Assembly: GCA_018715905.1 (NCBI GenBank)
Contig: DVKS01000195.1
Span: 1 to 37,533 of the forward strand
DNA length: 37,533 nucleotides
Source of the DNA: Candidatus Caccovicinus merdipullorum
GTDB taxonomy: Bacteria > Bacillota > Clostridia > Lachnospirales > Lachnospiraceae
Direction of reading: 5' to 3'
Each line of letters opens with the position of its first letter. Within the stretch, counting starts at the first letter, position 1. This document shows, in pieces, positions 1,637-19,090 of this stretch. The notes beneath the pieces were generated by a model that had not been told where the DNA came from, ran no database searches, and saw nothing but the letters and a program-made list of their open reading frames with translations. The position numbers and the translations under genes are program-made.

Positions 1637-1651
1637 GCGGTAAATTCCTCC

Positions 1652-2175: not shown

Positions 2176-2433
2176 TTATCGTTTCGCCTCCTTCAGTGCC
2201 TGCCCCTTGCGGTCCAGTTCATCCAGGATAGCCTTTATCAGGGCTGTGCAAAGCGGCTGATCTTCATACTGCCGCACAATTTCCCTGGCCTCTGCCACAA
2301 CAGCATCCCAATACGCCGCATCCAGGCTGACAAAGTAATACTTTTTGAAGAAATTCCATACATCGCCAAAATACTTAAATTCTATGGCCATTTCCTTGTT
2401 TGATGCTGCTATTTCAATCCCTCCTTTGCACAC
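2176..2433 (-). CDS. hypothetical protein (about 71-85 aa)
   Basis: This small acidic helical protein (core MAIEFKYFGDVWNFFKKYYFVSL... ending LDELDRKGQALKEAKR) follows the helicase gene and overlaps its end. The start is uncertain. The track uses a GTG at 2433 without a convincing ribosome site; an ATG at 2391 follows AAGGA too closely. GGAGGG sits between the two and would best serve an unusual codon such as ATA. The first 14 residues (CKGGIEIAASNKE) may therefore not be translated. Similar small proteins are frequent in Firmicutes phage replication modules, but I do not recognise the family. Confidence 0.55.
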   Translation of the reverse strand: MCKGGIEIAASNKEMAIEFKYFGDVWNFFKKYYFVSLDAAYWDAVVAEAREIVRQYEDQPLCTALIKAILDELDRKGQALKEAKR

Positions 2434-3722: not shown

Positions 3723-3723
3723 G

Positions 3724-4509
3724 CTATTCCTCCCCTTGGTCAAGATAATCAATAATGGTCCGGTTAAAAAAAGTGCTAAGATCCTGATAAAATTTCAGCT
3801 CAGTCCCTTCGCCCCGTCTCTCCTCCACATACGAATCCACAGCCAGATAGATTTGCCTGGGAGTTAACCTATAGCGTGTTCCATCAATCACCCGGCCTGG
3901 TCCAACAAAACCGCGATAGTACTGAAAGGCTTTTGCTCGTCCTCGCTTTTTCGGATAGATTCCATAAATCCTCGCGAAATCATCCTTGTCTTGCTCCAAC
4001 TCAGTCGGTTTATCCACGCAAGATTCATCAGCTTCAGAATGCGCTGCGTCAGATGCGCAAGACTTTTCTTTAGTTTTCTTTAAAATATTTATTTTATTAT
4101 GTGCCTGATTGGGCACTACCCCCTGTGCCTGATTGGGCACTACCCCAGTGTCTGATTGGGCACTGGTGTCTAATTGAGCACTGGTGTCTAATTGAGCACT
4201 GGTTATCCCTTGTGATTGGCAAAATGTAATTTCCAGGGTAGATCCACGCTGATCTGGATTTAAAACTTCAATCAGCCCCACCTCACGCAATCGCCTGATA
4301 GCTTTCTTCGTGTTCCTGACCCCGCAATTAGCCCACCTGGAGATAAACGTGGCAGAAAGGGGGCAGCTGTCCCTCTGGAACCCAAAAGTGAAGCGCAGGA
4401 TACATAGAGCCACCTTAAGCTCGGTGCCATTCAAGTCTGCCGCCCCAAGCCGCTCCAATAAATCGTTGGGAATTTTGGTAAAGTTTTCCATATCTCGTAC
4501 AGAAATCAC
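3724..4509 (-). CDS. lambda O-like replication initiator
   Basis: The N-terminus (MENFTKIPNDLLERL...LNGTELKVALCILRFTFGF) matches the winged-helix DNA-binding domain of phage replication protein O. That domain binds origin iterons and recruits the helicase. The middle (about 100-135) is a low-complexity linker encoded by a DNA repeat array (see 4064-4199). The C-terminal domain (DFARIYGIYPKKRGRAKAFQYYRGF) resembles the region shared by many phage replisome organisers. The start may be the GTG at 4509, overlapping the upstream stop as GTGA, or the ATG at 4491, where the O-like homology begins. dnaB follows directly. Confidence 0.82.
   Translation of the reverse strand: MISVRDMENFTKIPNDLLERLGAADLNGTELKVALCILRFTFGFQRDSCPLSATFISRWANCGVRNTKKAIRRLREVGLIEVLNPDQRGSTLEITFCQSQGITSAQLDTSAQLDTSAQSDTGVVPNQAQGVVPNQAHNKINILKKTKEKSCASDAAHSEADESCVDKPTELEQDKDDFARIYGIYPKKRGRAKAFQYYRGFVGPGRVIDGTRYRLTPRQIYLAVDSYVEERRGEGTELKFYQDLSTFFNRTIIDYLDQGEE
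4064..4199. other. putative replication origin: five iterons plus AT-rich tract
   Basis: Five copies of a 16-bp partly palindromic unit, GTGYCTRATTGRGCAC, start at 4101, 4125, 4148, 4166 and 4184. They are followed at 4064-4100 by a 37-bp stretch holding only three G/C bases. The repeat spacing (24, 23, 18, 18) shifts the reading frame, so the first two copies encode VVPNQA and the others encode SAQ.DT. The DNA, not the peptide, is therefore what is conserved. Iterons inside the initiator gene with an adjacent unwinding region is the layout of the lambda origin inside gene O. Origin function is inferred. Confidence 0.72.
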
Positions 4510-4856
4510 CCGCCAATCTCACTACCATTTAGGTATTCGGCCAATTTCCCTAAGTTGACCAAGCGCTTATTTCCCACCGCCCGAAAAACTATCTTTCCCT
4601 GAAGACATAATTTCCGAACGTAATCATAAGATAGCCCCGTTCTGGCTGCCGCCTCCTTGACAGAGACCATTTCTGGTACCTGCACCTCCTCTGCGACCGG
4701 TATTCGAATGGCTGTCTCGAGTACAGACATTTCCTCCAAAATTGCCCGTTCCCTTCGCTCATGCTCCGGCGTCCATCGGTTCCCCGTTTGCAAAAGGATC
4801 TCTGTCCTTTGCCTGGCGAGGTCCGTATACCGATCAATCATCTGCTGTCGCGTCAC
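4506..4856 (-). CDS. helix-turn-helix (excisionase/MerR-like) DNA-binding protein
   Basis: This protein (116 aa) has an N-terminal helical part (MTRQQMIDRYTDLARQRTEILLQ) and a C-terminal winged-helix domain of the Xis/MerR-like type. The latter reads VSVKEAAARTGLSYDYVRKLCLQGKI followed by the wing VFRAVGNKRLVNLGKLAEYL. The GTG start is set by GGAGG eight bases upstream. It is the second gene of the leftward early transcript, directly before the initiator gene. The domain is used by excisionases and by replication or transcription regulators of mobile elements, and an excision or early-control role is likely but not shown. Confidence 0.75.
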   Translation of the reverse strand: MTRQQMIDRYTDLARQRTEILLQTGNRWTPEHERRERAILEEMSVLETAIRIPVAEEVQVPEMVSVKEAAARTGLSYDYVRKLCLQGKIVFRAVGNKRLVNLGKLAEYLNGSEIGG

Positions 4857-4893
4857 CTTAAAAACCTCCCTTCACGTTCTTCAATCATGTAGA

Positions 4894-5088
4894 TCATTCT
4901 TCCAGAATTTCTAAAATGTCAACACCAAGGGCTTCTGCCACTCGCCCAAGGGTAGCTGGGAGAACGCTCCGACCAGCAATAACCTTTCCCACTGTTGGGA
5001 TGGGCATGGACGCCTTCCGGCACAAGTCACTTTTGTTCATCTTAGCCCGGGCCATAGCGAGCTCCAATTTGCGTCTATCTGCTTTCAA
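4894..5088 (-). CDS. XRE-family regulator, Cro-like (64 aa)
   Basis: This is a single Cro/C1-type HTH domain: LELAMARAKMNKSDLCRKASMPIPTVGKVIAGRSVLPATLGRVAEALGVD. The track start at 5175 is wrong. A TTG at 5088, seven bases after GGAGG, gives a compact 64-residue protein. The extra upstream residues of the track ORF cover the promoter. It is transcribed leftward from a strong promoter (5117-5145), divergent from the repressor gene at 5228. That back-to-back pair with shared operators is a classic lysis/lysogeny-type switch, and this gene takes the Cro position. Which protein wins at which operator is not known. Confidence 0.8.
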   Translation of the reverse strand: MKADRRKLELAMARAKMNKSDLCRKASMPIPTVGKVIAGRSVLPATLGRVAEALGVDILEILEE

Positions 5089-5102
5089 GTAATCACCTCC
5101 TC

Positions 5103-5168
5103 CGATACATGAGTATATTATAAATGATACCAAAGTAACGGTCAACACAAAATTTATACAAAAGTATC
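5103..5168. promoter_or_regulatory. three candidate repressor operators
   Basis: Three partly symmetric 15-bp sites share an ATAC-N4-GTAt core: CGATACATGAGTATA (5103-5117), TGATACCAAAGTAAC (5125-5139) and TTATACAAAAGTATC (5154-5168). The first touches the leftward -10, the second fills its -35/-10 spacer, and the third lies beyond its -35 toward the rightward gene. This is how operators of a divergent phage switch are placed. Binding by the two XRE proteins is inferred. Confidence 0.6.
5117..5145 (-). promoter_or_regulatory. leftward early promoter of the integrative element
   Basis: On the minus strand TTGACC (5140-5145) and a consensus TATAAT (5117-5122) are separated by 17 bases, about 30 bases before the TTG start at 5088. 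It would drive the Cro-like gene and the replication operon. A candidate operator lies exactly in the spacer. Confidence 0.85.
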
Positions 5169-5227
5169 TATACATGTCTTGAATAATGTGTTATGCTTAT
5201 TTCAAAGTTAATGAGGGGAGTGGTAAA

Positions 5228-5782
5228 ATGGCCTTTTCAGAAAATTTAAAGAGGATTCGTAAGAGCAAGGGAATGTCTCAGGCAGACTTAGCCAAAAAGG
5301 CAAATCTGTCGGAGGTTTCTGTCAGAAAGTATGAAAGCGGAGAGCGAAATCCTAAACTAGAAACAAGAATATTATTAGCTAATGCACTCAGCGTGCCCTT
5401 TGATGAACTAAATGGTGGGCCTTGGGTGGAGAAAAAAGACGGAAATATGTTTTTCTATAACGAGCATCATTATCCGAAGTCCCAATATGATTCAGATTAT
5501 AAAATAAAACCACAAAACTTCGAAAGCAGCGTTTTTCTTTCCGCCAAGGAGCTGTTGATAAAATATCGCAAAGCTTTGGGAATATATGAAGAAGCTTTAA
5601 AGAGCGCAGTGTTGGAATTGGACCGTTTACGCGGAGAAATGGCTAATATCGAAAAAACAATAGATCTATTGGAAAATGAGAAAAGAGTAATCCAAAACGA
5701 AATCATGCTTTTAGAAGCTGATATGAAAACTTCTTCCCAGACAAATACTGAGCCGATGCCGGATAAAAGGGAGATGGAATAA
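5228..5782 (+). CDS. XRE-family repressor with C-terminal coiled coil
   Basis: This 184-aa protein has an N-terminal Cro/C1 HTH domain (SENLKRIRKSKGMSQADLAKKANLSEVSVRKYESGERNPKLETRILLANALSVPFDEL). A linker and a long heptad-like region follow (about 110-170: LLIKYRKALGIYEEALKSAVLELDRLRGEMANIEKTIDLLENEKRVIQNEIMLLEADM), a probable dimerisation coiled coil. The ATG at 5228 is preceded by GAGGGGAG and replaces the longer track start. No S24 peptidase (LexA-like) domain is visible, so self-cleavage under SOS is unlikely. It is divergent from the Cro-like gene and its stop codon abuts the integrase start (TAAATG), so repressor and integrase are probably co-transcribed. Confidence 0.85.
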   Translation: MAFSENLKRIRKSKGMSQADLAKKANLSEVSVRKYESGERNPKLETRILLANALSVPFDELNGGPWVEKKDGNMFFYNEHHYPKSQYDSDYKIKPQNFESSVFLSAKELLIKYRKALGIYEEALKSAVLELDRLRGEMANIEKTIDLLENEKRVIQNEIMLLEADMKTSSQTNTEPMPDKREME

Positions 5783-7135
5783 ATGGCAAGTGTAAGAAAG
5801 CGTGGCAATTCCTACCAGATCACCGTAAGCAACGGCCGCAGGGCAGATGGTACACAGATCATTGAAACAGCCACATTTACCCCAGAGCCAGGAATGACAC
5901 CGAAACAGACAGAAAAGGCCCTGGAGCAGTTTAAAATTGAATTTGAGCGAGAGGTGAAATCTGGCCAGAACGTGAAGGGCCGGCGCATGACGCTAAAGCA
6001 GCTAAGTGAAATCTTTCTGGAAGATAACCGGCCTGTCGGGGATCCAGAAGAAGATGCCATATCCATTACCACTTGGGCTAGTTATAAAAATAGCTTGACG
6101 CTTCGAATCATCCCGCGAATGGGGCACATGAAGATTAATAGTATTGTGCCTAAAACCTTAAAAGATTACTGTAGGGAGCTGCGCCAGGATGGCGCTCGAT
6201 CAGACGGAAAGCCAGGAGGTTTGTCTGAATCCACCATAGCAAGAGATTGCTCCATCATTAGTTCTTTGCTGTCTTATGCGGTGGGAGAGGGCTTGCTTAC
6301 CATTAACCCGCTGATCTATGCGGGGAAACAGAGCAAGGGCAGGAAGGCTCGGAAGGAATACAAAGTAGACTATTTTACCATTGAGCAAACACAGCGTTTC
6401 CTCTGGGCGCTGGATAATCCAATTCCAATCCGCCATAGGGCGCATGGGCAGGTAGATGATACCGGAAAAGCATATCATGTACGGGAGTATGTCCAGCTCT
6501 GGAAGCTTTCTCTTAAATGGCGGGCCTATTTTTACCTGGCCTTGTTTGTTGGGGACCGCAGAGGCGAAAATATAGCACTCACTTGGGAGGATATCAACCT
6601 GGAAACTGGAGAGGTGCGAATCGATAAATCTACCGCTTACGTAGAACGAGAAATCTTCCAGAAAGGAACTAAAACGTACAAATCGCGTACTCCTATTGTG
6701 CCGCCTGTTGTAACCGGAATTCTCAAGCAGTGGAAATCTGAACAGAAACAGATGAGCCTGGAACTTGGAAGCTATTGGCGGGGATACCGCGGGAAAGAGT
6801 TTGATAAGAATTTTGTATTCATCCAGAATAATGGCAAGCAAATGCATCCATCCAGCCCATATCATCAGTTTAAACGCATTATTCGAATCTATAATGAGAA
6901 CGTGGCAGAAGACGAAGCGAGCATGATCCCGCCAGGAGCTACACAACACGATCTCCGGCACACTGCAGCGTCAATCTTGATTGCAAATAACATGGATCCG
7001 CGTTCTGTGGCTGGCATTCTGGGGCATGCGAATGCAGCGACTACGTTAAACATTTATTCTTACTTTTTTGAAACCAAAAACAAGGAGGCTGCTGACATTA
7101 TGGCGAGCGCTTTGGCCAAAACATCCAGCAGTTAA
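5783..7135 (+). CDS. int: tyrosine-family site-specific integrase
   Basis: This 450-aa recombinase integrates and excises the element. An N-terminal arm-binding-like domain (MASVRKRGNSYQITVSNGRRADGTQ) comes first, then a SAM-like core-binding domain (about 60-170) and the catalytic domain. Catalytic residues are visible: Arg in GDRRGENIALTWEDI (about 258), HDLRHTAA (His about 389, Arg about 392), LGHA (about 415) and Tyr in TLNIYSYF (about 424). The start follows the repressor stop directly. It points toward the tRNA-Thr 3' end about 250 bases away, the usual geometry for tRNA-targeting elements, so the tRNA gene is probably the attachment site. Confidence 0.93.
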   Translation: MASVRKRGNSYQITVSNGRRADGTQIIETATFTPEPGMTPKQTEKALEQFKIEFEREVKSGQNVKGRRMTLKQLSEIFLEDNRPVGDPEEDAISITTWASYKNSLTLRIIPRMGHMKINSIVPKTLKDYCRELRQDGARSDGKPGGLSESTIARDCSIISSLLSYAVGEGLLTINPLIYAGKQSKGRKARKEYKVDYFTIEQTQRFLWALDNPIPIRHRAHGQVDDTGKAYHVREYVQLWKLSLKWRAYFYLALFVGDRRGENIALTWEDINLETGEVRIDKSTAYVEREIFQKGTKTYKSRTPIVPPVVTGILKQWKSEQKQMSLELGSYWRGYRGKEFDKNFVFIQNNGKQMHPSSPYHQFKRIIRIYNENVAEDEASMIPPGATQHDLRHTAASILIANNMDPRSVAGILGHANAATTLNIYSYFFETKNKEAADIMASALAKTSSS

Positions 7136-7279
7136 GAAAACAGATTACAATGAATATTGCTATGATATGAAAACTCGAAAAATAATCGCAGGCAGGGGGC
7201 GGCATTGTAGGGGAGTTGTGAAACGCGACATCCCTACAGTCAAAGCCGTTCATGACCAAGTGTCAAAATTAACTATGCG

Positions 7280-7301
7280 TTAGTCAAATGTTAGTCAAAT
7301 G
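7280..7301. repeat. tandem 11-bp repeat near the element end
   Basis: TTAGTCAAATG occurs twice without a gap (7280-7290, 7291-7301), between the integrase stop and the tRNA gene. Short direct repeats here are often arm-type binding sites of a tyrosine integrase. The function is inferred from position. Confidence 0.5.
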
Positions 7302-7305
7302 AGAA

Positions 7306-7330
7306 AAGCCGCCCTACTTAAGGACGGCTT
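7306..7330. terminator. hairpin terminator after integrase
   Basis: AAGCCG.CCT / AGG.CGGCTT arms form a short stem with one mismatch. The minus-strand read-out ends in TTTTC and the plus strand in AAATT, so it looks stronger for leftward transcripts. It lies at the junction of the element and the host tRNA. Confidence 0.5.
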
Positions 7331-7350
7331 AAATTAACCTCATAAACACG

Positions 7351-7372
7351 AAAAACCCTGATAAAATCAGGG
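7351..7372 (-). terminator. terminator of tRNA-Thr
   Basis: On the minus strand CCCTGAT-TTT-ATCAGGG is followed by TTTTT, starting 12 bases after the tRNA 3' end. It is a compact intrinsic terminator for the tRNA transcript. Confidence 0.82.
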
Positions 7373-7383
7373 CTTCTCACAAA

Positions 7384-7456
7384 AGCTGCTGACGGGAATC
7401 GGACCCGTGACCTCCGCACTACCAATGCGACGCTCTACCGACTGAGCCACAGCAGC
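7384..7456 (-). tRNA. tRNA-Thr (anticodon GGT)
   Basis: The minus strand folds as a complete cloverleaf. The acceptor stem is GCTGCTG/CAGCAGC, the D arm GCTC..GAGC, the anticodon loop TTGGTAG (GGT), and the T arm ACGGG-TCCGATT-CCCGT, with discriminator T. The CCA end is not encoded. The integrase gene lies just beyond the 3' end with no other gene between, so this tRNA is very likely the chromosomal target of the integrative element. The second attachment repeat would lie off the left side of the window. Confidence 0.95.
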
Positions 7457-7588: not shown

Positions 7589-7617
7589 GTGACAGCGATT
7601 ATCAGGTAAGTTATAAT
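7589..7617 (+). promoter_or_regulatory. promoter of the HTH-protein gene at 7737
   Basis: GTGACA (7589-7594) and a consensus TATAAT (7612-7617) lie 17 bases apart, giving a leader of about 110 bases before the start at 7737. Confidence 0.7.
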
Positions 7618-7736: not shown

Positions 7737-8945
7737 ATGAATTGGGAAAAAGGACAGGAAGGGAGAACAAGAATTTCCGCGAACAATAGGAAGCTTCTCA
7801 GGGAGGCCGTAAGGACGCCGGAGGAGATGGTGGAATTTTTAAAAAGCGGGGCGGAGTTTCGAAGCTTTGATTATCTTCTGCGGCAGCTGTATCCTGGAGA
7901 AGATTTAATGCCCCGGCTGGTTTCGGGGCTGGAGAAGGTTACCGGGGAAAGCCACGACAGCATTGCAAGGAAAGCGCGGAACTGGCTGAACGGAAAGAAT
8001 ACGCCGAAAAGCCGGGAACTGCTGTTTCAGATCAGCTTTGTTCTGGGCCTGGATGAATTTGGGGCGGACCGTCTGCTGGCCTGCGCTTCAGAGACGGGCA
8101 TCCATTATCGGAATCCCAGAGAACTGGCATACGCCTGTGCCCTTCGTCTGGATCTGCCTTATGAAGAGGCGGATGAGCTGGCCGGGGAGGCGGAGACTGT
8201 CTGCGGGAAGATCAAGGAGAAGAAAGAGAAGGAAAAGAAAGAGAAAAACGAGAAGAACGAGAAGCTAAGGGGAATGGAGACAGGGCGCCTTTTCACCCGG
8301 CAGGTGCGGGACGCCTTCGATGAGGTCTGGTCAAAGGAGGAATTTCGGGACTTTATTCAGGAGTATGGAGATTCCCTGGGAACCCTTCATGAAACGGCAT
8401 ACCGGGACTTCCAGGATATGCTGACGAAGCTTCAGCGTCCGGAAAGCGGCGTGGACCTGAAGGAAAAGAAATACAGTATGGAGGAGATCCTGACGGATTA
8501 TATCCGGATGAAGGTTCCGGAGACCAAGCGGGTAGGCGGGTATTCCGCTCTGCAGCGGCTGGTAAAGAAATACTGGCCCAATGAAAGCAGCCTGATTAAT
8601 ATGCGCAGAAGGAAAGAGGATGTAAGCCGGAAGGCCATGATCCTTTTGTATCTGGTGACGGAAGCCCTGGAAGAGGCGGAAGACCCGGATGATCCGGATG
8701 CTTATTTCTGGGAAGATATGGAAGAGGAGGACGAAGACAGCATGCTGGAGATCCGAATCCGCCAGATGGATATCTTTCTGGAGCGGTACGGCATGAATCC
8801 CCTAGACTGCGGCAGTCCCTTCGATCTGATGGTGATGTACGCCATGCGGACCCAGGGAGATGAACTGACGAGAGAAGGGATGGGCGACCGGATGCGTCAG
8901 GTAGTGGAAATCCTGTTTTCAGAAGAAGAAACGGAAAAAAGTTAA
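7737..8945 (+). CDS. HTH-type regulator-like protein, first gene of the accessory cluster
   Basis: This protein (402 aa) is not a family I can name. An N-terminal segment (about 55-110: LMPRLVSGLEKVTGESHDSIARKARNWLNGKNTPKSRELLFQISFVLGLDEFGADRLLA) looks like a Cro/C1-type fold, with NWLNGKNTPKSRELL near the recognition region. A Lys/Glu-rich linker (KEKKEKEKKEKNEKNEK, about 165-180) separates it from a helical C-terminal half with a very acidic patch (EDPDDPDAYFWEDMEEEDED). There are no membrane segments. GGAGG lies eight bases before the ATG. It precedes a membrane kinase-NTPase and could be its transcription factor or phosphorylation target; both are guesses from neighbourhood. Confidence 0.65.
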   Translation: MNWEKGQEGRTRISANNRKLLREAVRTPEEMVEFLKSGAEFRSFDYLLRQLYPGEDLMPRLVSGLEKVTGESHDSIARKARNWLNGKNTPKSRELLFQISFVLGLDEFGADRLLACASETGIHYRNPRELAYACALRLDLPYEEADELAGEAETVCGKIKEKKEKEKKEKNEKNEKLRGMETGRLFTRQVRDAFDEVWSKEEFRDFIQEYGDSLGTLHETAYRDFQDMLTKLQRPESGVDLKEKKYSMEEILTDYIRMKVPETKRVGGYSALQRLVKKYWPNESSLINMRRRKEDVSRKAMILLYLVTEALEEAEDPDDPDAYFWEDMEEEDEDSMLEIRIRQMDIFLERYGMNPLDCGSPFDLMVMYAMRTQGDELTREGMGDRMRQVVEILFSEEETEKS

Positions 8946-9023: not shown

Positions 9024-11993
9024 ATGTTAAGAGGCAGGAATCTGCGTCAGCCTGGGGAGACCTTGATTCTGGGAGAGACAGAATACTGTGTGGAGGGGGT
9101 ACAGGGCCAGGGCGGAAGCGCTGTGGTTTATCGGGCCCGATATGAGGATTCGCTGAATCGGGGATGTTATCATCACGTTTTGATTAAGGAATTGTTTCCG
9201 TATCATCCCAAGGGATGGGTATACCGGGATGAGCAGGGGTGGATTCGGTGCTGTCCGGAGGGGGAAAATCTGATGGAGCAGTGCCGGAACCGCTTTTTCC
9301 AGGGAAACGCGGTGAACCTTAAGCTGTTAGAGGCGCTGCCGGAGAAGATATCAGGCAATTTAAATTCCTATGAGGCATATGGAACCTGCTATTCGGTGCT
9401 GTATGTCCATGGCGGCCAGGATCTGGAGCATTTCCTGGAAGGGGAGAAAGAGAGCTGGTCCCTTCTCCGGGCAGCTGAGGTAATGGAACAGATTCTGGAC
9501 GCTCTGGAGCCTTTTCATGAGAACGGTCTTCTCCACCTGGATATCAGTCCGGATAATATTCTGATGCTGCCGGGAAGGGCCATGCTGATTGATTACAACA
9601 GTGTCTGGCCGGAGAATCCGGGGGAGCAGGAGGAATTTTTTTTCAGTGAAAAAGAAGGGTATACTGCGCCTGAGGTGCGGCTTAAGGAAATTCGGGAAAT
9701 CGGGCCGGCCGCGGATCTTTACGGGGTCTGCGCGGTATTTTTTACCATGCTTACGGGAAGGCGTCTTACGCCGGAAGAGTCCATGGGAAAGGGACTGGAG
9801 CGGGCCTTCCCGAAAGACCTGGATATCTTTCGCGGTCAGCCGGAAACAGCCGCCTGGCAGACGGTGCGGATCATCAAAAAGGGGCTGCATCTGCTTCCAA
9901 GAAAACGGTATGGATCCGTGAATTCTCTGCGGGAAGATATTCAGGAGCTTCTTTTGCGGCTTCATGGCTGGGGGATCTCCCACAGCGCCTTGTGGGAAGG
10001 CAGCCTGCGGGAGTGGAAAAAAAGCCGGGACAGGGAGACACAAGACCTGGAGCGGGTTCTGATGCTGACCGATGGCCTGGAGGGTTCCGGAGGAAGGCGG
10101 GGCCAGAACCCGGGGAAACGGGCGGAAAAATGGAATGAGAGAGATTTTCTCCCCCTTTTGGAGCGGGGAGAATGCTTCCTTTTATATGGCGCGGGGGGAA
10201 TGGGCAAGACCCGTTTCCTTAAAATGCTGCTCAGGCAAAGCATGGCCCGATACAGCCCGGCAAAACCTGTTTTTCTCTACATTTCCCTGGCGGATTATCC
10301 GGAAGGCGGGGAGGAGTTACGGTATATTCGAAAGCAGATTCTGCGCAAGCTTATGTTTCTGGAAGGGGGCCAGGGGGTGGAGGAGGCGCTAACATGCCTG
10401 GATCAGCTTTTCTCCGAAGAAGAAGGTCCGGGAGCCGTCCTTCTTCTGGATGGGCTCAATGAGGCTGGCCCGCGGCGGCAGAATCTGTTAAAGGAAATTG
10501 AGGGGCTGGGGAGATTTTCGTTCCTGGGAATCCTGGTAACGGACCGCACAGATGGGGTGAAGGCATACGGCCTTTCCGGCTTTTGTCCGGCGCGCCTGAT
10601 GGAACTGACCAGGGATCAGGTGGAAGAGACCCTTCGCCGACGGCAGATCCCCTGTCCGGAAGAGAAGATGATGCGTCTTCTGGAAAATCCCATGATGCTG
10701 TGGCTGTACGGGCAGACGGCGGTGATGGACCGGGAATTGGGGAGAGAGCAGGAGGAGACCGAGGCAATGACCATGGAATCTCTGGCCGGGGGATATCTGG
10801 AGAGGCTGTGTGCCGGCCAGCTGCGGCTGTATTCCGGAGATCAGGCGCAGCAGCTGCGGCAGGATTATCTGATCCGCCATCTTCTTCCTGACATTGCCAG
10901 GGAAATGAAGCGGAAGAAACGGCCCCTCCTTACGCTGGAGGAACTCTACCGGCCGGTAAGGCAGAGCTATGAACGCTTAAGGAGCAAAGCCTTTTCCCTG
11001 GCGTTTCCCCAGTACATGGGAAAGTCCAGGCTGATGCTCCAGGGAATCGCCAGTGAAAGCGAGTGGTTCGACTACGCGGTATCGGAACAGCTTTTAGGAG
11101 CCCTGGATCTTCTTAGAATAAGCGGAAATGGAAATTACGGACTGATTCATGAAAATTTCGCCGACTGCCTGGCCGGACAGGCTAGGGAAAACCACAAAAG
11201 ACTTGCCCGGTACAGGCGAAGGGCAGGCGGGAAAAAGTTCCTGGCAGGAGCGGCCCTCCTTCTCCTGATCGGGGGAGGAGGCGCGGCGGCCTGGCATCAG
11301 TGGGGGCCCAAAACCTACAGCGCCCAGGAAAAGCTGGTGTTCAGGAACGCGGCCCAGCGGCTGATGATCAACCTGCAGGTGCTGGATATTCAGCTGATGA
11401 CCCAGGAAACCATCCTGGAGGAAGCCATGGACAGCGCTGTGCTGGAGGGAGAGCCTGAGCAGACCGCCATGTTTGCCCAGTCCATTGAGAGAAAACGCCA
11501 GGAGCTGTCTTCCCAGCTTTCCGTGGCTTCTGATGGCAGCCGCTGGGTTCTGGAATTAGAGGAGATGAACGGCTCTGTTCCTCTGGAAGAACTGCAGGAA
11601 CTTTATGCAAAGCCCTGGGAGATGGAGAGACTGATGAATGAGGCCCTTGGCTTTCTTGAGGAAGCCTTCTGCAGTCCGGACAGCCCTTATACCACCAGAG
11701 AAAAGCGGCTGCCTCTGGCAGAAGCTTATCAGAACTATCTGGATGCCTATGCAAGGGAGTGCTATGTGGAGCTGAATCTGGTTCTTTCTTCCATGGAACC
11801 GGAGGCGGCAGCCATGGTGCAGGAGGCAACAGCGGAAATGAGCGTGCTGAAGCAGTATATTCTCGCCTACCCCTTAAGCGGAGTGACCCAGGAGGAGATT
11901 CAGGCCCAGCTTACCGCTGCCCGGAATCAGAAAAAAGACGCGGCGGACGCCATGCGGCTTGTGAATTATCCTATGGAGGCAGCGGGATGGTGA
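9024..11993 (+). CDS. membrane Ser/Thr kinase fused to a NACHT/STAND-like NTPase
   Basis: This 989-aa receptor-like protein is a three-part fusion (residues counted from the TTG at 9006). A Hanks-type kinase domain has the glycine loop GQGGSAVVY (34-42), Lys61 in VLIKELFP, the catalytic loop HLDISPDN (177-184), the metal site LIDYNS (DYN for DFG) and TAPEV. An NTPase follows, with Walker A GAGGMGKT (395-402) and Walker B VLLLDGLNE (478-485), the style of NACHT/STAND switches. One membrane helix (FLAGAALLLLIGGGGAAAW, near 744) and a helical C-terminal region of about 230 residues, probably outside the cell, follow. I chose the ATG at 9024 (GGGAG seven bases upstream); a TTG at 9006 also has a good GGGGAGG site. 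It likely senses a signal and phosphorylates partners. Confidence 0.82.
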   Translation: MLRGRNLRQPGETLILGETEYCVEGVQGQGGSAVVYRARYEDSLNRGCYHHVLIKELFPYHPKGWVYRDEQGWIRCCPEGENLMEQCRNRFFQGNAVNLKLLEALPEKISGNLNSYEAYGTCYSVLYVHGGQDLEHFLEGEKESWSLLRAAEVMEQILDALEPFHENGLLHLDISPDNILMLPGRAMLIDYNSVWPENPGEQEEFFFSEKEGYTAPEVRLKEIREIGPAADLYGVCAVFFTMLTGRRLTPEESMGKGLERAFPKDLDIFRGQPETAAWQTVRIIKKGLHLLPRKRYGSVNSLREDIQELLLRLHGWGISHSALWEGSLREWKKSRDRETQDLERVLMLTDGLEGSGGRRGQNPGKRAEKWNERDFLPLLERGECFLLYGAGGMGKTRFLKMLLRQSMARYSPAKPVFLYISLADYPEGGEELRYIRKQILRKLMFLEGGQGVEEALTCLDQLFSEEEGPGAVLLLDGLNEAGPRRQNLLKEIEGLGRFSFLGILVTDRTDGVKAYGLSGFCPARLMELTRDQVEETLRRRQIPCPEEKMMRLLENPMMLWLYGQTAVMDRELGREQEETEAMTMESLAGGYLERLCAGQLRLYSGDQAQQLRQDYLIRHLLPDIAREMKRKKRPLLTLEELYRPVRQSYERLRSKAFSLAFPQYMGKSRLMLQGIASESEWFDYAVSEQLLGALDLLRISGNGNYGLIHENFADCLAGQARENHKRLARYRRRAGGKKFLAGAALLLLIGGGGAAAWHQWGPKTYSAQEKLVFRNAAQRLMINLQVLDIQLMTQETILEEAMDSAVLEGEPEQTAMFAQSIERKRQELSSQLSVASDGSRWVLELEEMNGSVPLEELQELYAKPWEMERLMNEALGFLEEAFCSPDSPYTTREKRLPLAEAYQNYLDAYARECYVELNLVLSSMEPEAAAMVQEATAEMSVLKQYILAYPLSGVTQEEIQAQLTAARNQKKDAADAMRLVNYPMEAAGW

Positions 11994-12062
11994 TGGCCGG
12001 ATACCAGAACCGGGGAGAAGAGCAGGAGGAAAAGAAAGAGGAGAAGGGAAGGAAGCAAAGGC

Positions 12063-12848
12063 ATGAAAAAAGGGAGAGGAACAGGGCTTAAGGGCCGCCG
12101 GAAACTGGCTGCGGTCCTTTTGGGGCTGCTGATCTTATCTGCCTGCAAAGCCGGGGAAGACGCCTTTTCCCGGCAGAAGGAAATTGTGGATGAGACAGCC
12201 CGGATTGTACTTTTGATGGATCAGGACAGCCGGGACTATGATCTGGCCCTTCAGGAGATCGGCAGATACCTTGATGAGCCGGATCCGGAAATTCTTGCTG
12301 CCGTTCAGCAAAAGGTTCAGGAATCCACGGCGGAGTTTCAGACCCGGCAGGATCAGGCGGAGTCTTATGAGATGACGGAGGATTTCGCGGACATTCTTGT
12401 GGAGAACCATATTGACCCGGAAGAATACCAGATGAATGCCGATTCACGGATCAGCAGCCTGGGCAGATTTATCACCCGGCTGCAGACCATGGACACATAT
12501 CTGGAAATGGTCTCCATCCTTCCGGGAACCGTGGAGGATGACCTGCGATTTATGTATGAATATAACCTGGAGGAGCAGCGGATCATCCGCGGATACCAGT
12601 ACTGTGCGGTGAATTACTGGTTTGCTTCCTGGGAAGGGGAAGGCGCGGAGTACGCCAAGGAGCAGATCGCGGATCAGCTGGAGTCTTTCGTGCTGGAGGA
12701 ATCGATCTGGGAGACCAGTCAGGAAGGGGCGGAACAGAGGATGGAGGTATATTTGAATCAGCTGGAGGAGCAGATTTCCGAATTGACAGATTATATCGGC
12801 GAAGCGCAGGAAGAATTATATGAAATGGAAAAGGAAAACAGTCCGTAA
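12063..12848 (+). CDS. predicted lipoprotein, helical
   Basis: This 261-aa protein has a basic N-terminus (KKGRGTGLKGRRK), a hydrophobic stretch and a lipobox LSAC at about residues 25-28, so it should be lipidated and held on the outer face of the membrane. The mature part is acidic and almost all helical, ending in a probable coiled coil (YLNQLEEQISELTDYIGEAQEELYEMEKE). It follows the kinase-NTPase gene by 69 bases in the same direction and ends at a strong terminator. It may be the extracytoplasmic partner or ligand-binding subunit of that kinase's outer domain; this is inferred from gene order only. Confidence 0.75.
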   Translation: MKKGRGTGLKGRRKLAAVLLGLLILSACKAGEDAFSRQKEIVDETARIVLLMDQDSRDYDLALQEIGRYLDEPDPEILAAVQQKVQESTAEFQTRQDQAESYEMTEDFADILVENHIDPEEYQMNADSRISSLGRFITRLQTMDTYLEMVSILPGTVEDDLRFMYEYNLEEQRIIRGYQYCAVNYWFASWEGEGAEYAKEQIADQLESFVLEESIWETSQEGAEQRMEVYLNQLEEQISELTDYIGEAQEELYEMEKENSP

Positions 12849-12855
12849 AGAACGA

Positions 12856-12890
12856 GGGCTGGCAAAAAGTTATAAGCTTTTTGCCAGCCC
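12856..12890. terminator. bidirectional terminator between convergent genes
   Basis: GGGCTGGCAAAAAG / CTTTTTGCCAGCCC is a perfect 14-bp stem followed by TTTC on the plus strand. On the minus strand the same bases encode the last codons (GLAKSL) of the XRE gene, whose stop lies in the loop. Confidence 0.85.
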
Positions 12891-13193
12891 TTTCATGTAG
12901 GCCAGAGCCAGTTTTTTATCCTCCGCAGAAAGGGTGGTGAAAAGGGACAGGCATTCAGACTGTTCCCTGGTAAGGCTGGGGCGTTCAGGATCCGGATCAA
13001 AAAATTCCGAGATGGAGATGCCGAATCCTCCGCACAGCTTCTGCAGAGTTAAAAGAGAAGGCTGGTTCTGTTTATTCATCATGGTGTTTAATGTGGAATA
13101 GGTAATTCCGGACGCTTTTGCCAGATGGTAGTAAGACCAGCCCCGTTCTGCGCAGAGTTCCCGGATGCGTTCGAGGGAATTAAATTCTGTCAT
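12870..13193 (-). CDS. XRE-family regulator (107 aa)
   Basis: The HTH domain is MTEFNSLERIRELCAERGWSYYHLAKASGITYSTLNTMMNKQNQPSLLTLQKLCGGFGISISEFF, a typical Cro/C1 fold. A short helical tail follows (SAEDKKLALAYMKGLAKSL). GGAGGGGG lies just before the ATG at 13193, so the track start at 13427 is 78 residues too long. It is the only minus-strand gene in the cluster and is divergent from the seven-gene operon starting at 13591, so it probably controls that operon. Dyad sequences in the 400-base gap (CGTTAT-N6-ATAACG at about 13293-13310, GTCATTATGAC at 13437-13447) are candidate sites. Confidence 0.82.
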   Translation of the reverse strand: MTEFNSLERIRELCAERGWSYYHLAKASGITYSTLNTMMNKQNQPSLLTLQKLCGGFGISISEFFDPDPERPSLTREQSECLSLFTTLSAEDKKLALAYMKGLAKSL

Positions 13194-13485: not shown

Positions 13486-13590
13486 GATATGGTAAAAAAT
13501 TACAAATGCCGAAACACTTCTGCTGCGGGCGAAAAATCCATTGGAACCAAGGAAAGGGCGGAGGCCCACATTGTTAAGGAGGTAAGCAGG

Positions 13591-14712
13591 ATGAGAACAT
13601 TTACGAAGGAACAAAGTCAGGCATTGTTAAACCAGGCGGAAGAAATGATGAAGCACATGGAGGAAGGCCAGAGTGTAAGGGACGTGATGGCCAGGATTTA
13701 TGTGGAAAATCTGGATGAAAAGACCATGAGCCAGGGACAGATGATGGCGGATGCCATCATTCAGGGGATAAAGGATTTTGATTCCGATTACCAGGAGGCC
13801 CAGGGTGATCTGGACCGTTTTATCCGGAAATTCCAGGATAAGGCCGATGACGGAAAAAGCCGTGAGGAACGCTGCAATTACTGGCTGAAAACAGCCGCCG
13901 CCGTTTCCGCAGCAGCTCTGGCCATGAAAGAGGGAGGAATTGACGAAGAAGAGATCATGCGGGAAATCGAAGCCCTTGCTGTGACAAAAGAAGAAGCCAC
14001 GCCGGAACGGGAAAAAGAACTGCGGGATCAGGCCAGAGAAGCCATTAAGCAGTCGGGAATTATGCTGGGAGCCCTGGCTGCCCAGGCGGAAGAACTGGAG
14101 GGGGTTTCCCCGGATGAAGCGGCGGAAATGCTTCTTGTTTTCGGAAACCAGGAGATGGAGTACCGGGCTGTGGCAGCCATGATCGCGTACACGAAGATCA
14201 AGAAGGGTGAGTTTGAAAATGTGCCGGTGGAAATGACTGCCGCCCAGGTAGCCTGCATCGTATGCGCGGAAGTGGAACAGACCCGGATCGCGGAAGCGGT
14301 GGGAAAGGGCAGTCTGGCGGTGGATGTGGCGGCAGCTCTTCTTAACGCTCTGGGCGCGGTGGTTATTGCTGCCTTTGCCATCAGTCTTGCCGCGGCGGGG
14401 CTGGAATTTGTTTTGAACCTTTTTCCTCTTATCCTGGCGGTTCCTGGCTGCATGGTGGTGGGAGCTTTGGTCACTCACGGGGTCTGCCGGGCCTGGAAGC
14501 TCTGGAAAAAAGACAGCCGCAGAATCGCGGAAGGTACGGCCGCGGCAGTTCGATTTGTGCTGGACGGCATAAAGGCGATTCTTTCCTTTGCCGCAGGAAC
14601 CCTGATTCCGGGAATCGTTAAGAAGGCAGAGGAAATTTATGCCCGGGTGCGCAGCAGGGGACAGAAGGCGGAACAGGTGCAGGTTCTGGAAGAAGCGGGA
14701 GCTCAGTTATGA
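13591..14712 (+). CDS. helical membrane protein, first gene of the Hsp70/AAA+ operon
   Basis: This protein (373 aa) is rich in Ala and Glu and mostly helical. One or two long hydrophobic helices lie near residues 250-295 (LNALGAVVIAAFAISLAAAG and LNLFPLILAVPGCMVVGALVTHG), followed by a basic stretch and a C-terminal helix. AAGGAGG lies before the ATG at 13591, so the first 34 residues of the track ORF are untranslated leader. Its stop overlaps the next start (ATGA), showing translational coupling. I do not recognise a family. It could be the membrane anchor of the ATPase complex encoded downstream; that is inference from the operon. Confidence 0.68.
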   Translation: MRTFTKEQSQALLNQAEEMMKHMEEGQSVRDVMARIYVENLDEKTMSQGQMMADAIIQGIKDFDSDYQEAQGDLDRFIRKFQDKADDGKSREERCNYWLKTAAAVSAAALAMKEGGIDEEEIMREIEALAVTKEEATPEREKELRDQAREAIKQSGIMLGALAAQAEELEGVSPDEAAEMLLVFGNQEMEYRAVAAMIAYTKIKKGEFENVPVEMTAAQVACIVCAEVEQTRIAEAVGKGSLAVDVAAALLNALGAVVIAAFAISLAAAGLEFVLNLFPLILAVPGCMVVGALVTHGVCRAWKLWKKDSRRIAEGTAAAVRFVLDGIKAILSFAAGTLIPGIVKKAEEIYARVRSRGQKAEQVQVLEEAGAQL

Positions 14713-16214
14713 TCCGGGTGCTGAAGATTCAGCAGACGCCGGTTTTAAATTTCCGGGATCTGCAGAAACGGTTCTGGCCGGCGGAGATTTTCAGACAGAT
14801 GGAGATTTTTGCGGAATTTGCTTCCGTTCACTGCCGTCCCATCAGAACTCAGCTGGCGGACAGAGAAAGTGGAAGAAAATACTCGGCGGAGTATTTTACC
14901 AAGGATTTCTGGATGGGGATTCTTCACCGGAGCCGGTGGCCGGGAGAGGAAAATCTTATGGATTGTTTCATGGCGGCGGCAAAGGCGGAATTGGGCATTC
15001 GGGGAAACGATGAAGAAAGGGATCCGGAGGATTCGCGGCAGGATGAAGAGAGAGAAGCCGGCATGAAACGGGAGGTTCGTGACGGCGGACTGGAGGAAAA
15101 GCTTGCCTTTATTGCCAGAGAAAGGGGCAGTGAGGCGGATTATGGAGAAGTTATCCGGCTGCTGGCAATCTGTGAACTGTCAGAAGTGGATCCGCGGAGG
15201 CTGGAGCCCTGGGCCTGGAAGAATCCGGAGACGGCAGAAAGCGGGGAGGAACCAGAGGAGATCAGCCTGTTTCCTTATGAGAATACGGTGCAGCTGATGA
15301 CCGGCGGCCGCGTTCGGAAATTCTGGTATCATGACGATGACGTTCTTGCTCCAGGGGCCAGAATCCATACGGTGAAAGTGGAAGCCAGGGGGAGCGCCAA
15401 TCAATACGCGGTTCTGCGGATTGAGCTGTACAGCGAAAAAACCGGAAAGTGTGTCCAGAGCCTGTCCTTAAAGAGCGGGGAGTATCGGTACTGCAGCGTC
15501 TCACGGGAGAGAATTATCAAATTTCTGCCGGATGTATGCGTCAGCGATGAGTTGTGCCTAATGCGGCAGAGATACAGTCAGAAGGAACTTACGGTCATCC
15601 CCAAAGACGGGGAATCCTGGACATTAAAAACGGAGGAAGTCACAAGCTTTGCCCCGGGAAGCAGACAGCAGGGATTTCTGCTGATCCAGGGAGGAAAGGT
15701 AAATTCGCGATTTTACAGACCGGCGGAAGACTACTTTATCCGGCTTAAGATGGATATGCTCACTCTCCCGGCAGTGGAAGCCCTGATTACGGAAACCGGC
15801 TATGCCGTTTTGCTGGAGGACGGTTCTGTGGCCTCCAGCCGGCCGGAGACATGGAAAAAAGGAATCGTCTCCCTTTCCATGGAGGGGAGGGCTCCTGTTC
15901 TTTCCGGGGCAGACAGTCTAAGCTGCAGGGAGGCAGCCGTTTCCTTGTCAGGAAAAAGCCTTGCCTTTTTGGGAAACGAGGAAAATAAGCATGAAGTTCT
16001 GTTCTCGGGAAAAGGCAGGAACTTTTCTATCCGGGAAAGAGACGGACGCAGGGAAGTATGGCTGGAAGAGGGGAGGAAAGTTGATGTGGAAATTAAGACA
16101 GGGCAGATTCTCAGGAGATGCCAGGCAAAGCCGGATGGAGGGCGAGGGTATGGTCCAGAGAAAAGATCTGGCGAACATACAGCGATGGGAGAAGGGAATA
16201 GAAGCTGCTCTTGA
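14709..16214 (+). CDS. hypothetical protein, beta-rich C-terminal region
   Basis: This protein (501 aa) matches no family I know. The N-terminal 110 residues are helical (VLNFRDLQKRFWPAEIFRQMEIF) and are followed by a charged linker. From about 185 the sequence alternates short beta-like stretches (TVQLMTGGRVRKFWYHDDDV, YAVLRIELYSEKTG, YAVLLEDGSVASSRPETW), which could form a propeller-like or repeated sheet domain. No membrane segment is seen. The start overlaps the previous stop (ATGA). The last 25 residues are Gly/Arg-rich and lie over the next gene's start with a 65-base overlap, so the native end may be earlier or the overlap may be used for coupling. Confidence 0.62.
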   Translation: MIRVLKIQQTPVLNFRDLQKRFWPAEIFRQMEIFAEFASVHCRPIRTQLADRESGRKYSAEYFTKDFWMGILHRSRWPGEENLMDCFMAAAKAELGIRGNDEERDPEDSRQDEEREAGMKREVRDGGLEEKLAFIARERGSEADYGEVIRLLAICELSEVDPRRLEPWAWKNPETAESGEEPEEISLFPYENTVQLMTGGRVRKFWYHDDDVLAPGARIHTVKVEARGSANQYAVLRIELYSEKTGKCVQSLSLKSGEYRYCSVSRERIIKFLPDVCVSDELCLMRQRYSQKELTVIPKDGESWTLKTEEVTSFAPGSRQQGFLLIQGGKVNSRFYRPAEDYFIRLKMDMLTLPAVEALITETGYAVLLEDGSVASSRPETWKKGIVSLSMEGRAPVLSGADSLSCREAAVSLSGKSLAFLGNEENKHEVLFSGKGRNFSIRERDGRREVWLEEGRKVDVEIKTGQILRRCQAKPDGGRGYGPEKRSGEHTAMGEGNRSCS

Positions 16215-16974
16215 CCTGCGGCTGAAATTTGATTTCGGCCAGGTGCTGAAAAGGGCCTTTGAGGAATGGAGGGAGATTCCGGCCCTTACCCGGCAAAGTG
16301 AGGCGGCGGACATTGTCCTTTCTGCCTTTTATCAGCAGGGAAAAATCAGCGATTATCTGGAGAAACTGGAAGCCTTCGCGGACCGGATCCCATCCATGAG
16401 CAGCCAGGAGACGGTACGGAATCAGGGCTACTATAATTATCTGTTTTTCCTGCGTCAGTTTGTGGAGGACATGAAGCCCAAATATGAAGCCGCCAGGGAG
16501 GCGGCAGAAAAAGCAGAACCGGCTGAAACCACCCCTGCCAATGTGCTGCGCTTCATCAGCAGTGAATGTGCTTCTGTGGCAGCCCTTAAGGACCTGCCAA
16601 AGGCCAGGGAGGCGGTAAGAAGACTTAAGGATTCTCTTGTTCTGGGAAAGGCCAGGACTTCATTAAATATTCAGGACCTGGCTTTCGTTTCGGAAAGCAT
16701 GGAGCTTTTGGAAATGGCGGTGAGAAGCGGGGATACCAGAGAACTGGAAGAGGCAGAGGAAAATCTGATGCAGAGAAAACGCGCCCTGAAAGAAAACATC
16801 GACAAGGGAAGCGGGCTGTATGACATCATCAAGGCAGAAATGACGGAGGAGTGGTTTGAGGCACTTAATCCGGAATCGGACCGCTGCCTTGTGATGGATA
16901 TGCCGAAAGAGAAGATCCGCCAGCTTTACATCGAAAAAATCAGCCGCATACGGAAGAAGACAAATGGACTGTAA
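16150..16974 (+). CDS. hypothetical helical protein
   Basis: This protein (274 aa) is almost entirely helical (EVIPAL-like helices, EDMKPKYEAAREAAEKAEPAE, LEEAEENLMQRKRALKENIDK), ending with a basic tail KISRIRKKTNGL. The ATG at 16150 follows a purine-rich GGAGGGCGAGGG, replacing the longer track start that reads through the previous gene. It has no visible enzyme motif or membrane helix. Twenty-two bases separate it from the Hsp70-like gene, so it may be a co-factor or substrate adaptor of that ATPase, in the way J-proteins or exchange factors are. No HPD motif is present, so it is not a classic J-protein. Confidence 0.66.
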   Translation: MVQRKDLANIQRWEKGIEAALDLRLKFDFGQVLKRAFEEWREIPALTRQSEAADIVLSAFYQQGKISDYLEKLEAFADRIPSMSSQETVRNQGYYNYLFFLRQFVEDMKPKYEAAREAAEKAEPAETTPANVLRFISSECASVAALKDLPKAREAVRRLKDSLVLGKARTSLNIQDLAFVSESMELLEMAVRSGDTRELEEAEENLMQRKRALKENIDKGSGLYDIIKAEMTEEWFEALNPESDRCLVMDMPKEKIRQLYIEKISRIRKKTNGL

Positions 16975-16996
16975 TCGTCCGGGGAGGTACAGAAAA

Positions 16997-19057
16997 ATGG
17001 AGAGAAAGACCATTGGAATTGATCTGGGGCACTGCGAAACGGCGATGGCGTTTCCCAGACAGCCTGATGCAAATGACAGCAGATATGAGGTCAGGAGACT
17101 GGTGGGAGAAAAGAAGGATCAGGTAGTGGCGACCCAGCTTATCCTTACCAATGAACAGATGAAAAAGCTGTCCGGACATAAACGGCCGGAATATTCCCTT
17201 CTTTCCGGTCTGGGAGAGATCCGGATTGGAAATAAGCTCCCGGCCTATGTCCCGGATGGAGAAAAATTCTGTTATTTTAAGGTGCCGCCGAAATATTTTG
17301 ACCGTCCTTACGGAAATACGGAATGTGCAAAAGAGTGCGGCATCACCCACGGAATGCTGATGGCATGCTTTGCCTTTGCTCTGGTCAGAAACATTTTCCT
17401 GTACAACGTGGGGGACCTGAGTGAAAACGACCGAAAAGAAACGGATCTGCTCATCGGCTGTCCTACCACCAGGGACTGGACCTCTCAGGAGGCCCAGACA
17501 GAATATGGGGCGCTGATTAAGAAGGCCACCAATGTTCATGCCGTCCGCATCGTGCCGGAATCCAGAGCAGCCATGTTCAGCAGCGTAGAAAATGAAAAGA
17601 TTAAGGTTTCTGCCCTGAAAGGCGCTGTGGTCTTTGACTTTGGCTCATCGACCGCGGACTGTACATATATGCTCTTAGGCCGGAAAATGATTGAATTCAG
17701 CTGGGGGCTGGGGGCCTCGGAGATCGAACGCCAGATGACCATGGCGGCATACCAGAAGGCCGTGGAGACAAACGGCGCCTTTCATGCCGCCATGACTTCC
17801 ATAGCAGACGTGGAAGACGAACTTCGGACGGCTAAGGAAAGCTATTTTGATCACCGTTTTCCGCCCAAGGGCCATCCGATCATCTGCAGTTTTGAACGTG
17901 AAGAGGATGGAATGACCGTAGATCAGATGATTCGGATCGATGATCCGTTCATGAAGCAGGTTACAGCGGAAAGACCTATCCATGTTCTCTGCGACAGCAA
18001 GAATACTGTGTCCGGTTCCTGGGAAGAACTCTGCCTGGCTTTTTTTCGGGAGGCCAGGGAGCGGATCAGCCAGGCATCTTACACTTTTGTGGACGCTTCC
18101 GGAAAGAAACAGACGAAACAATGTGAGATCGACACCATTGTGCTCACCGGAGGTGCCAGCCGGATGGAATTTATTGCTGAATTATGCCGGGAAGCTTTTC
18201 CTGAGGCGAAGATTCAGAAAGAAGATAATCCTTCTCACACCGTGTCCAATGGTCTGGGATGGGTGGCGGTATCCGATGCTAATCTGGAATCCTGCAGAAA
18301 CGAGGCGCGGAAGCTGATCGATTCCCGAAAATCCTGCAGCATCACGGCTCTGAAGGAAAATCTGGAGTCAAAGATCTTCGATTTAATCTGCCAGACCGCG
18401 GAAAAATGCACTCAGGAGTGGGCCGACGCGCCGGGAGATAATCTGTCTCTCCAGGATCTGCAGAAGAAGATTACCGCGGAGATGAACAGAGCGGAAACCA
18501 AAAATAAGATTAACGCGGCCTGCGCGCAGATTATTACGGAATGGAAAAAGGAGCTGTCCTCAGCCATGGAAGAGGCGGTGAACGGACAGGTAGGCAGGCT
18601 CTATTCGGAAAAGGTGGCCAGAGGGCTGATGATCCCGACGGATGTGTGGGAGACTCTCCAGGCGGGAAATATGAAGCTGGACCAGATGGATGTTTCCAAT
18701 ATCTTAAAAGGCATTGATGTTTCCTCCATTGCCAGGCAGATTGCCCAGTGGGCCATTATCGCGGCAGCCAGCGGCGTAGGCGCGATTTTCGGCCCCGTTG
18801 GAGCAACCATTGGATTCTTGGCCGGTCTGGTAGCGGCCGCCTTTATCGGCGATGATAAGATGGAAGAAAAACGGCCCAGGAAAAAACGCCAGAACGCGGC
18901 AGCTACGGTGAAGAAGAAGATCCGGGAATCCAAAGCCCAGCTGATGCAGGAGTTTCAGAAAGATTTTTCCCGGTTTGAATCGGAATATTCCAAACATGTG
19001 GATCAGTCCTTAACGGCGGCTTTTGAGATTGTATCCTTAAAACGATTTTCCATGTAA
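16997..19057 (+). CDS. Hsp70/actin-fold ATPase with glycine-rich hydrophobic C-terminus
   Basis: This 686-aa protein carries an actin/Hsp70 nucleotide-binding domain: phosphate-1 GIDLGHCETAMAF near the start, phosphate-2 VVFDFGSSTADCTY (about 208-221), and the adenosine motif IVLTGGASRMEFI (about 381-393). It lacks a recognisable DnaK substrate-binding domain. The C-terminal third is helical and charged, then shows a glycine-rich hydrophobic stretch (IIAAASGVGAIFGPVGATIG, about 585-605, and FLAGLVAAAFIG), and ends in a basic coiled region. Glycine-zipper stretches insert into or bind membranes. GGGGAGG precedes the ATG at 16997. Together with the AAA+ protein next door it suggests an ATP-driven remodelling machine at the membrane. 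The substrate is unknown. Confidence 0.8.
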   Translation: MERKTIGIDLGHCETAMAFPRQPDANDSRYEVRRLVGEKKDQVVATQLILTNEQMKKLSGHKRPEYSLLSGLGEIRIGNKLPAYVPDGEKFCYFKVPPKYFDRPYGNTECAKECGITHGMLMACFAFALVRNIFLYNVGDLSENDRKETDLLIGCPTTRDWTSQEAQTEYGALIKKATNVHAVRIVPESRAAMFSSVENEKIKVSALKGAVVFDFGSSTADCTYMLLGRKMIEFSWGLGASEIERQMTMAAYQKAVETNGAFHAAMTSIADVEDELRTAKESYFDHRFPPKGHPIICSFEREEDGMTVDQMIRIDDPFMKQVTAERPIHVLCDSKNTVSGSWEELCLAFFREARERISQASYTFVDASGKKQTKQCEIDTIVLTGGASRMEFIAELCREAFPEAKIQKEDNPSHTVSNGLGWVAVSDANLESCRNEARKLIDSRKSCSITALKENLESKIFDLICQTAEKCTQEWADAPGDNLSLQDLQKKITAEMNRAETKNKINAACAQIITEWKKELSSAMEEAVNGQVGRLYSEKVARGLMIPTDVWETLQAGNMKLDQMDVSNILKGIDVSSIARQIAQWAIIAAASGVGAIFGPVGATIGFLAGLVAAAFIGDDKMEEKRPRKKRQNAAATVKKKIRESKAQLMQEFQKDFSRFESEYSKHVDQSLTAAFEIVSLKRFSM

Positions 19058-19090
19058 ACTTATTGGGGTCAGCGGGGAAAGGAGAGAGAG

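Follow-up and report, generated by a model that had tools for sequence, protein, structure and literature searches.

In a gut bacterium of the class Clostridia, Candidatus Caccovicinus merdipullorum, one membrane protein joins a protein kinase, a switch resembling that of nucleotide-binding leucine-rich repeat (NLR) proteins, and a sensor placed outside the cell, a new arrangement of known parts. This protein is the product of gene B in the 37,533-nt stretch of DNA analysed here (contig DVKS01000195.1, positions 1 to 37,533; hereafter the window), and B belongs to a unit of three genes, A-B-C, in which A encodes a helical protein and C a lipoprotein. We consider it fairly probable that A-B-C is a transmembrane signalling unit, in which a membrane-anchored kinase of the STAND type (signal transduction ATPases with numerous domains) would sense the outside and signal through A.

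Gene B is a 989-codon open reading frame without interruption, encoding from N- to C-terminus a kinase, a NACHT-type P-loop NTPase, a membrane helix, and a C-terminal domain of about 230 residues. An earlier note on the same DNA had described the product as a receptor-like kinase fused to a NACHT/STAND-like NTPase and paired with a lipoprotein. Pfam matches, motifs, and nine full-length orthologues bear the fusion out, and the motifs that the note had named lie where it had placed them, at residues 171-178 (HLDISPDN), 389-396 (GAGGMGKT), and 473-480 (LLLDGLNE), as do the one membrane helix, the outer C-terminal domain, and the downstream lipoprotein gene, in that order. The motifs are invariant across the nine orthologues, at identities down to 28%. 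Directly N-terminal of the membrane helix lies a positively charged stretch, KRLARYRRRAGGKK, which by the positive-inside rule places the kinase and NACHT parts inside and the C-terminus outside. The ratio of nonsynonymous to synonymous substitution rates (dN/dS) between the copies of G005 and G007, the one close pair on which these ratios rest, was 0.12 for B (kinase 0.07, NACHT 0.13, ectodomain 0.15) and 0.14 for C, and the genes of the unit are under purifying selection. Given the intact frame, the Pfam matches, the invariant orthologue motifs, and dN/dS of 0.07-0.15, the architecture of gene B is not due to chance.

Profile searches do find a NACHT module at residues 380-640, the region on whose NACHT/STAND fold the earlier note had staked its reading; the location stands and the limits do not, since the module reaches the winged-helix end motif HENFADCL near residues 709-716. 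Eight of the nine full-length orthologues match Pfam NACHT (best 3.6e-12), and the B protein of the window matches at 9.1e-5, under the curated cut-off. All nine keep the Walker A motif, a Walker B motif of the NACHT type with a small residue after the Asp (DG[LF][ND]E), the sensor-1 Arg508, P556-M557 of the NPMM motif in the GxP-like helical part, and His709 at the end of the winged helix. A search with a profile of residues 375-728, the NACHT region, retrieved a NACHT-WD40 protein from another family of the class (4.7e-45), the closest non-kinase relative of the module. In one NACHT-WD40 protein (L143:4814-7718), with a NACHT region closely similar to B's, the WD40 part runs on in an overlapping frame, so that the gene may be frameshifted. 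Judged from profiles and motifs, B holds a real and complete NACHT module, comprising NTPase and winged helix, and from what is established of STAND proteins it is sound to expect, as the earlier note did, that kinase output would be gated by nucleotide state and by an outside signal.

The kinase domain retains K55, the catalytic D173, N178, the metal-binding D190, the APE motif, and the αF Asp, all invariant among the orthologues with NACHT and a transmembrane (TM) helix; the earlier note had made its case depend on the metal-binding residues, which are present. What it overlooked, while rightly recognising a kinase, is that three canonical residues are missing: the αC Glu is Gly94, HRD reads HLD, and DFG reads DYN. 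The same class of change at the αC Glu, HRD Arg, and DFG Gly runs throughout the TM clade, whereas canonical kinases in the same genomes retain all three. On this motif evidence, B is an atypical, non-RD member of the kinase fold and not a canonical Hanks-type kinase, and that it acts as a kinase is likely, though not certain. Many plant immune receptors carry kinases of the non-RD type, a resemblance that we take as analogy, not relationship.

Gene A is the constant partner of these kinases. A search with A as the sole query, covering the family and order, gave 23 strong homologues whose flanks could be read. For 22 of these a kinase gene is no more than 1.6 kb away, and in most cases no more than 250 bp; in the exception, G407, the kinase is 4 kb distant. 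With six Pkinase matches in the 3.0 Mb source genome, the chance expectation for such adjacency is estimated at ~1%. A further pair, in another family of the class (G1214), was reached through B, and outside the order A is rare (one other genome, with a weak match, in a phylum sample of 399). Distances among A proteins correlate with those among the kinases (r 0.92, 22 pairs), and three more genomes of the genus (G005, G006, G007), as well as other genera, carry orthologues of A, B, and C together. The earlier note had mentioned A, the gene at 7737, as a possible substrate only; its relevance holds, now as a constant partner and a member of the unit. Stand-alone versions of the N-terminal half of A, of ~140-150 residues, also exist, one of them (L126:6338-6760) 66 bp from a kinase gene. 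We dropped the idea that A is a known helix-turn-helix regulator: its stretch RNWLNGKNTP...LF.ICFALGL looks XRE-like by eye, and profile and PDB searches gave no support.

In the kinase tree, the proteins encoded next to A group in a single supported clade that excludes the canonical kinases in the comparison (support 100/100). This clade holds three builds. The first is soluble, kinase-NB-ARC/STAND-TPR (G462, G246, G671, and others); the second is kinase-TM-beta ectodomain with a Big_2 domain (G038, with which G155, G190, and G268 group); and the third is that of B, kinase-NACHT-TM-helical ectodomain accompanied by lipoprotein C. The sister group of the kinase-NACHT-TM forms has a kinase, a TM helix, and an ectodomain without NACHT. 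Because the clade holds all three builds, the STAND part is spread through it and the sensor end has been exchanged, and since the soluble A-adjacent relatives have the textbook STAND layout, the TM helix and ectodomain of B occupy the place of sensor repeats. One relative, G194, falls inside the third build, nested among NACHT forms in the tree, and has no NACHT while retaining the ectodomain and lipoprotein C; that the NACHT part is dispensable in one relative had escaped the earlier note. A homologue of C was found only with kinases of the helical-ectodomain type (the NACHT-TM forms, plus G194), and as G194 dropped NACHT yet holds both, it is the helical ectodomain, not NACHT, that C accompanies.

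Gene C encodes a signal peptide and a lipobox ([LVI][ASTVI][GAS]C), which reads LSAC in the window, is lipobox-like in most orthologues, and is not evident in G170. Compared with the profile of mature C, the ectodomain profile gave an E-value of 1.8e-4 over 163 columns. The score of 37.1 lies above every control: 100 column shuffles (13.8 +/- 2.6, maximum 22.6), 100 block shuffles (maximum 26.3), a reversed profile (20.8), and two unrelated helical comparisons with A (17.6 and 19.8). Ectodomain and C distances also correlate (r 0.95, 9 pairs). Lipoprotein C and the B ectodomain are thus probably distant homologues, which points to duplication of the sensor, with one copy carried by B and the other lipid-anchored, and the two might be able to pair. 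The pairing of B with a lipoprotein that the earlier note had pointed out is therefore well supported, C being restricted to this type of outer domain and apparently homologous to it. A single-sequence structure model of C, made with no alignment depth, was poor (predicted local distance difference test, pLDDT, 41).

Taken together, these observations suggest how the unit could work. B would keep the usual STAND order of effector, NACHT switch, and sensor, with the sensor shifted outside the cell membrane, where the ectodomain would work with C, its probable distant homologue anchored on the same membrane face. A change outside (a ligand, envelope damage, or the surface activity of an invader) would alter the ectodomain-C complex and release the NACHT module for ATP-driven assembly; assembly would bring the non-RD kinase domains together, and these would act on A, a dedicated cytoplasmic output that could be substrate or adaptor. 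Put more specifically, B may be an NLR turned inside out, a STAND switch whose outside sensor, made of the ectodomain and a duplicated lipid-anchored copy, has control of a non-RD kinase and of an output protein dedicated to it, a bacterial counterpart that merges the logic of surface receptor kinases and NLRs in one chain; we hold this reading tentatively, as slightly less than an even call.

Several observations weigh against such a unit. With the αC Glu, HRD Arg, and DFG Gly missing, catalysis may be weak, unusual, or absent, and with G194 devoid of NACHT, the module may merely tune the response. The correlated distances of A with the kinase and of the ectodomain with C are expected from shared descent alone. 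At several loci (G314, G719, G246, G546), A is convergent or divergent and not co-operonic. It shows no recognisable domain, with no Pfam or PDB relative in profile and PDB searches, and a single-sequence model of its residues 1-170 was poor (pLDDT 50). Finally, the hhalign probability for ectodomain-C homology was 49%, from few sequences, which is why we call that homology probable only.

The three genes lie on one strand, separated by 78 nt (A-B) and 69 nt (B-C), and no plus-strand terminator-like site was found between them. The features of the locus are listed in Table 1.

Table 1 Positions of the A-B-C genes, the domains of B, and adjoining features in the window
Feature	Position	Strand	Basis or remark
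Promoter-like site ahead of A	7589..7617	+	GTGACA-17-TATAAT, 11/12 consensus positions; consensus match only
Gene A, 402-aa helical protein, unnamed family	7737..8945	+	Constant partner of this kinase clade
Gene B	9024..11993	+	Kinase-NACHT-TM-ectodomain protein, 989 aa
B kinase domain, aa 20-315	9081..9968	+	Pfam Pkinase 4.5e-15; motif alignment
B NACHT NTPase, aa 384-540	10173..10643	+	Walker A GAGGMGKT, Walker B LLLDGLNE, sensor-1 Arg508; Pfam NACHT in orthologues
B NACHT-associated helical and winged-helix part, aa 541-725	10644..11198	+	NPMML and H709 motif, kept in all nine
B single membrane helix, aa 739-757	11238..11294	+	Hydropathy; position common to all orthologues
B extracytoplasmic helical domain, aa 758-989	11295..11990	+	Profile match to lipoprotein C
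Gene C, lipoprotein, 261 aa	12063..12848	+	Lipobox LSAC (Cys28)
15-pair terminator-like hairpin between C and convergent XRE gene	12855..12891	.	Scored on - strand
Convergent XRE-type gene, conserved neighbour in genus	12870..13193	-	Identity 73-84% beside triad in G005, G006, G007

The XRE gene, which the earlier note had also proposed as a possible substrate, is indeed a conserved neighbour within the genus, and a homologue with 59% identity lies near A in G407; its linkage is much less consistent than that of A. To the left, an integrated element (467-7456) with a sigma factor, an ERCC4-type nuclease, a DnaB-like helicase, a repressor, and an integrase ends at the tRNA-Thr gene (7384-7456). 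The triad is unlikely to be cargo of this element, since the tRNA-Thr gene sits between the integrase and gene A and the remaining triad loci in the genus yielded no tRNA. To the right, the cassettes differ within the genus: the window has Hsp70-like, IetA-like AAA+, and peptidase genes; G006 has dynamin-like and HerA genes; and G005 (similarly G007) has dynamin-like GTPases, M48, PP2C, vWA, and another kinase. In the window these genes form a separate run of seven (13489-22140, plus strand) with its own promoter-like site, swapped for other cassettes in the sister genomes and comprising an Hsp70-like gene (16964), the IetA-like AAA+ gene (19091, PADLOC 5.5e-17), a small HELRH peptidase gene (21086), and four unnamed genes. 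This run is possibly a second conflict system; membership of its Hsp70/AAA+ genes in the unit was ruled out, since the triads of G005, G006, and G007 have no such genes next to them. The set beside the triad in G005 (L038:1504-13789), with three dynamin-like GTPases (one LeoA-like, 4.7e-22), an M48 peptidase, a kinase, PP2C, vWA, and trypsin-FHA, resembles a TerY-P-type signalling set. Further on, a run of HD protein, methyltransferase, NadD/YbiA fusion, vWA, RNA ligase, and HD/polynucleotide-kinase-like genes (28149-33543, plus strand) looks by eye like an RNA repair or nucleotide cluster.

What the unit serves can be read in more than one way. Phage defence is plausible but unproven, and we give somewhat less than even weight to anti-phage or anti-invader immunity, with a membrane NLR-like sensor that, once triggered, would phosphorylate targets through A and halt growth. 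The STAND architecture of B, the swapping of sensors among its relatives, and the patchy occurrence of the system (15 of the 397 family genomes sampled and 1 of 398 other genomes in the phylum sample) are consistent with it, as are the differing conflict-type cassettes right after the unit; the DNA to the right resembles an island of conflict or stress genes, the strongest circumstantial pointer to defence. On the opposing side, homologues searched for in phages, viral contigs, and plasmids gave none in the first two and no plasmid match covering most of the protein, the window copy lies across tRNA-Thr from the integrase and so apparently outside that element, in the one close pair compared, purifying selection acts on the ectodomain and on C (dN/dS about 0.15), and there is no toxic effector domain. 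PADLOC matches to the anti-phage kinase PD-T4-6 were dropped as defence evidence, because canonical kinases of the same genome, used as a control, score better (1e-52 to 1e-72, against 3e-21 for B) and the matches are generic.

The unit could instead be an ordinary envelope-stress or developmental receptor kinase, similar to those with PASTA repeats, into which NACHT was inserted as an oligomerisation aid. This is possible, if on the doubtful side: the sister group without NACHT, the NACHT-free G194, and the conserved lipoprotein under purifying selection fit it, whereas the soluble A-adjacent relatives carry NB-ARC/STAND and TPR, so that STAND parts span the whole clade, the NTPase motifs are fully conserved where a passive spacer would not need them, and the patchy distribution is unlike that of core sensors. 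A pseudokinase scaffold that binds ATP or A, with output by A binding and not by phosphorylation, is unlikely: the invariant Lys55, Asp173, Asn178, Asp190, APE, and αF Asp of the NACHT-TM orthologues and the kinase dN/dS of 0.07, the lowest of the three B domains, speak against it, and the absent αC Glu, HRD Arg, and DFG Gly and the disruption reported for most kinase domains of STAND/vWA ternary conflict systems (PMC7159879) speak for it.

Each part of B has known counterparts. Like the bacterial NACHT (bNACHT) and other STAND NTPases, B has an N-terminal effector, a central NACHT with helical and winged-helix parts, a C-terminal sensor, and the hallmark motifs. The bNACHT sensor is cytoplasmic; in B, a TM helix follows ~14 residues past the winged helix, the sensor lies outside beyond it with a homologous lipoprotein, and the effector is a Ser/Thr-type kinase. 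In the PknK-type mycobacterial kinases (kinase, MalT-like STAND, and repeats), the kinase likewise precedes the STAND NTPase, a layout that matches the soluble relatives beside A; B differs in its NACHT-clade NTPase, the TM helix and ectodomain replacing the repeats, the A and lipoprotein partners, and the non-RD kinase. PASTA-type receptor kinases (PrkC, StkP, PknB) share a cytoplasmic kinase, a single membrane helix, and an outer sensor, whereas B has NACHT between kinase and membrane, a helical ectodomain, a lipoprotein homologue, and missing canonical kinase residues; no PASTA repeats were matched in B with Pfam. The STAND/vWA ternary conflict kinases (Kaur et al. 2020, PMC7159879) resemble B as kinase effectors, often with disrupted residues, in NTPase-centred systems, whereas the A-B-C unit, from Clostridia, has no vWA, MoxR, or EAD and is built on a membrane-spanning fusion. 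With PD-T4-6, B shares the Ser/Thr kinase fold, a match that is not specific. Kinases as effectors in ternary conflict systems (PMC7159879), the fusion of a kinase to a MalT-like domain (PMC1262709), receptor kinases, and NACHT defence proteins (PMC12169576) are already on record. In the open-licence literature we found no description of a kinase-NACHT-TM-ectodomain protein accompanied by a homologous lipoprotein and a constant partner, which is weak evidence of absence.

STAND and NLR proteins are usually cytoplasmic detectors, and receptor kinases watch the cell surface. B unites an NLR switch with a receptor kinase in a single polypeptide, and a matching lipoprotein at the surface and a constant partner gene go with it. 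If our reading of A-B-C as a transmembrane signalling unit is true, it would illustrate a way for signals outside the cell to drive an NLR switch, would provide a natural series of sensors exchanged within one kinase clade, and would make A, a family without a recorded Pfam name, a candidate output.

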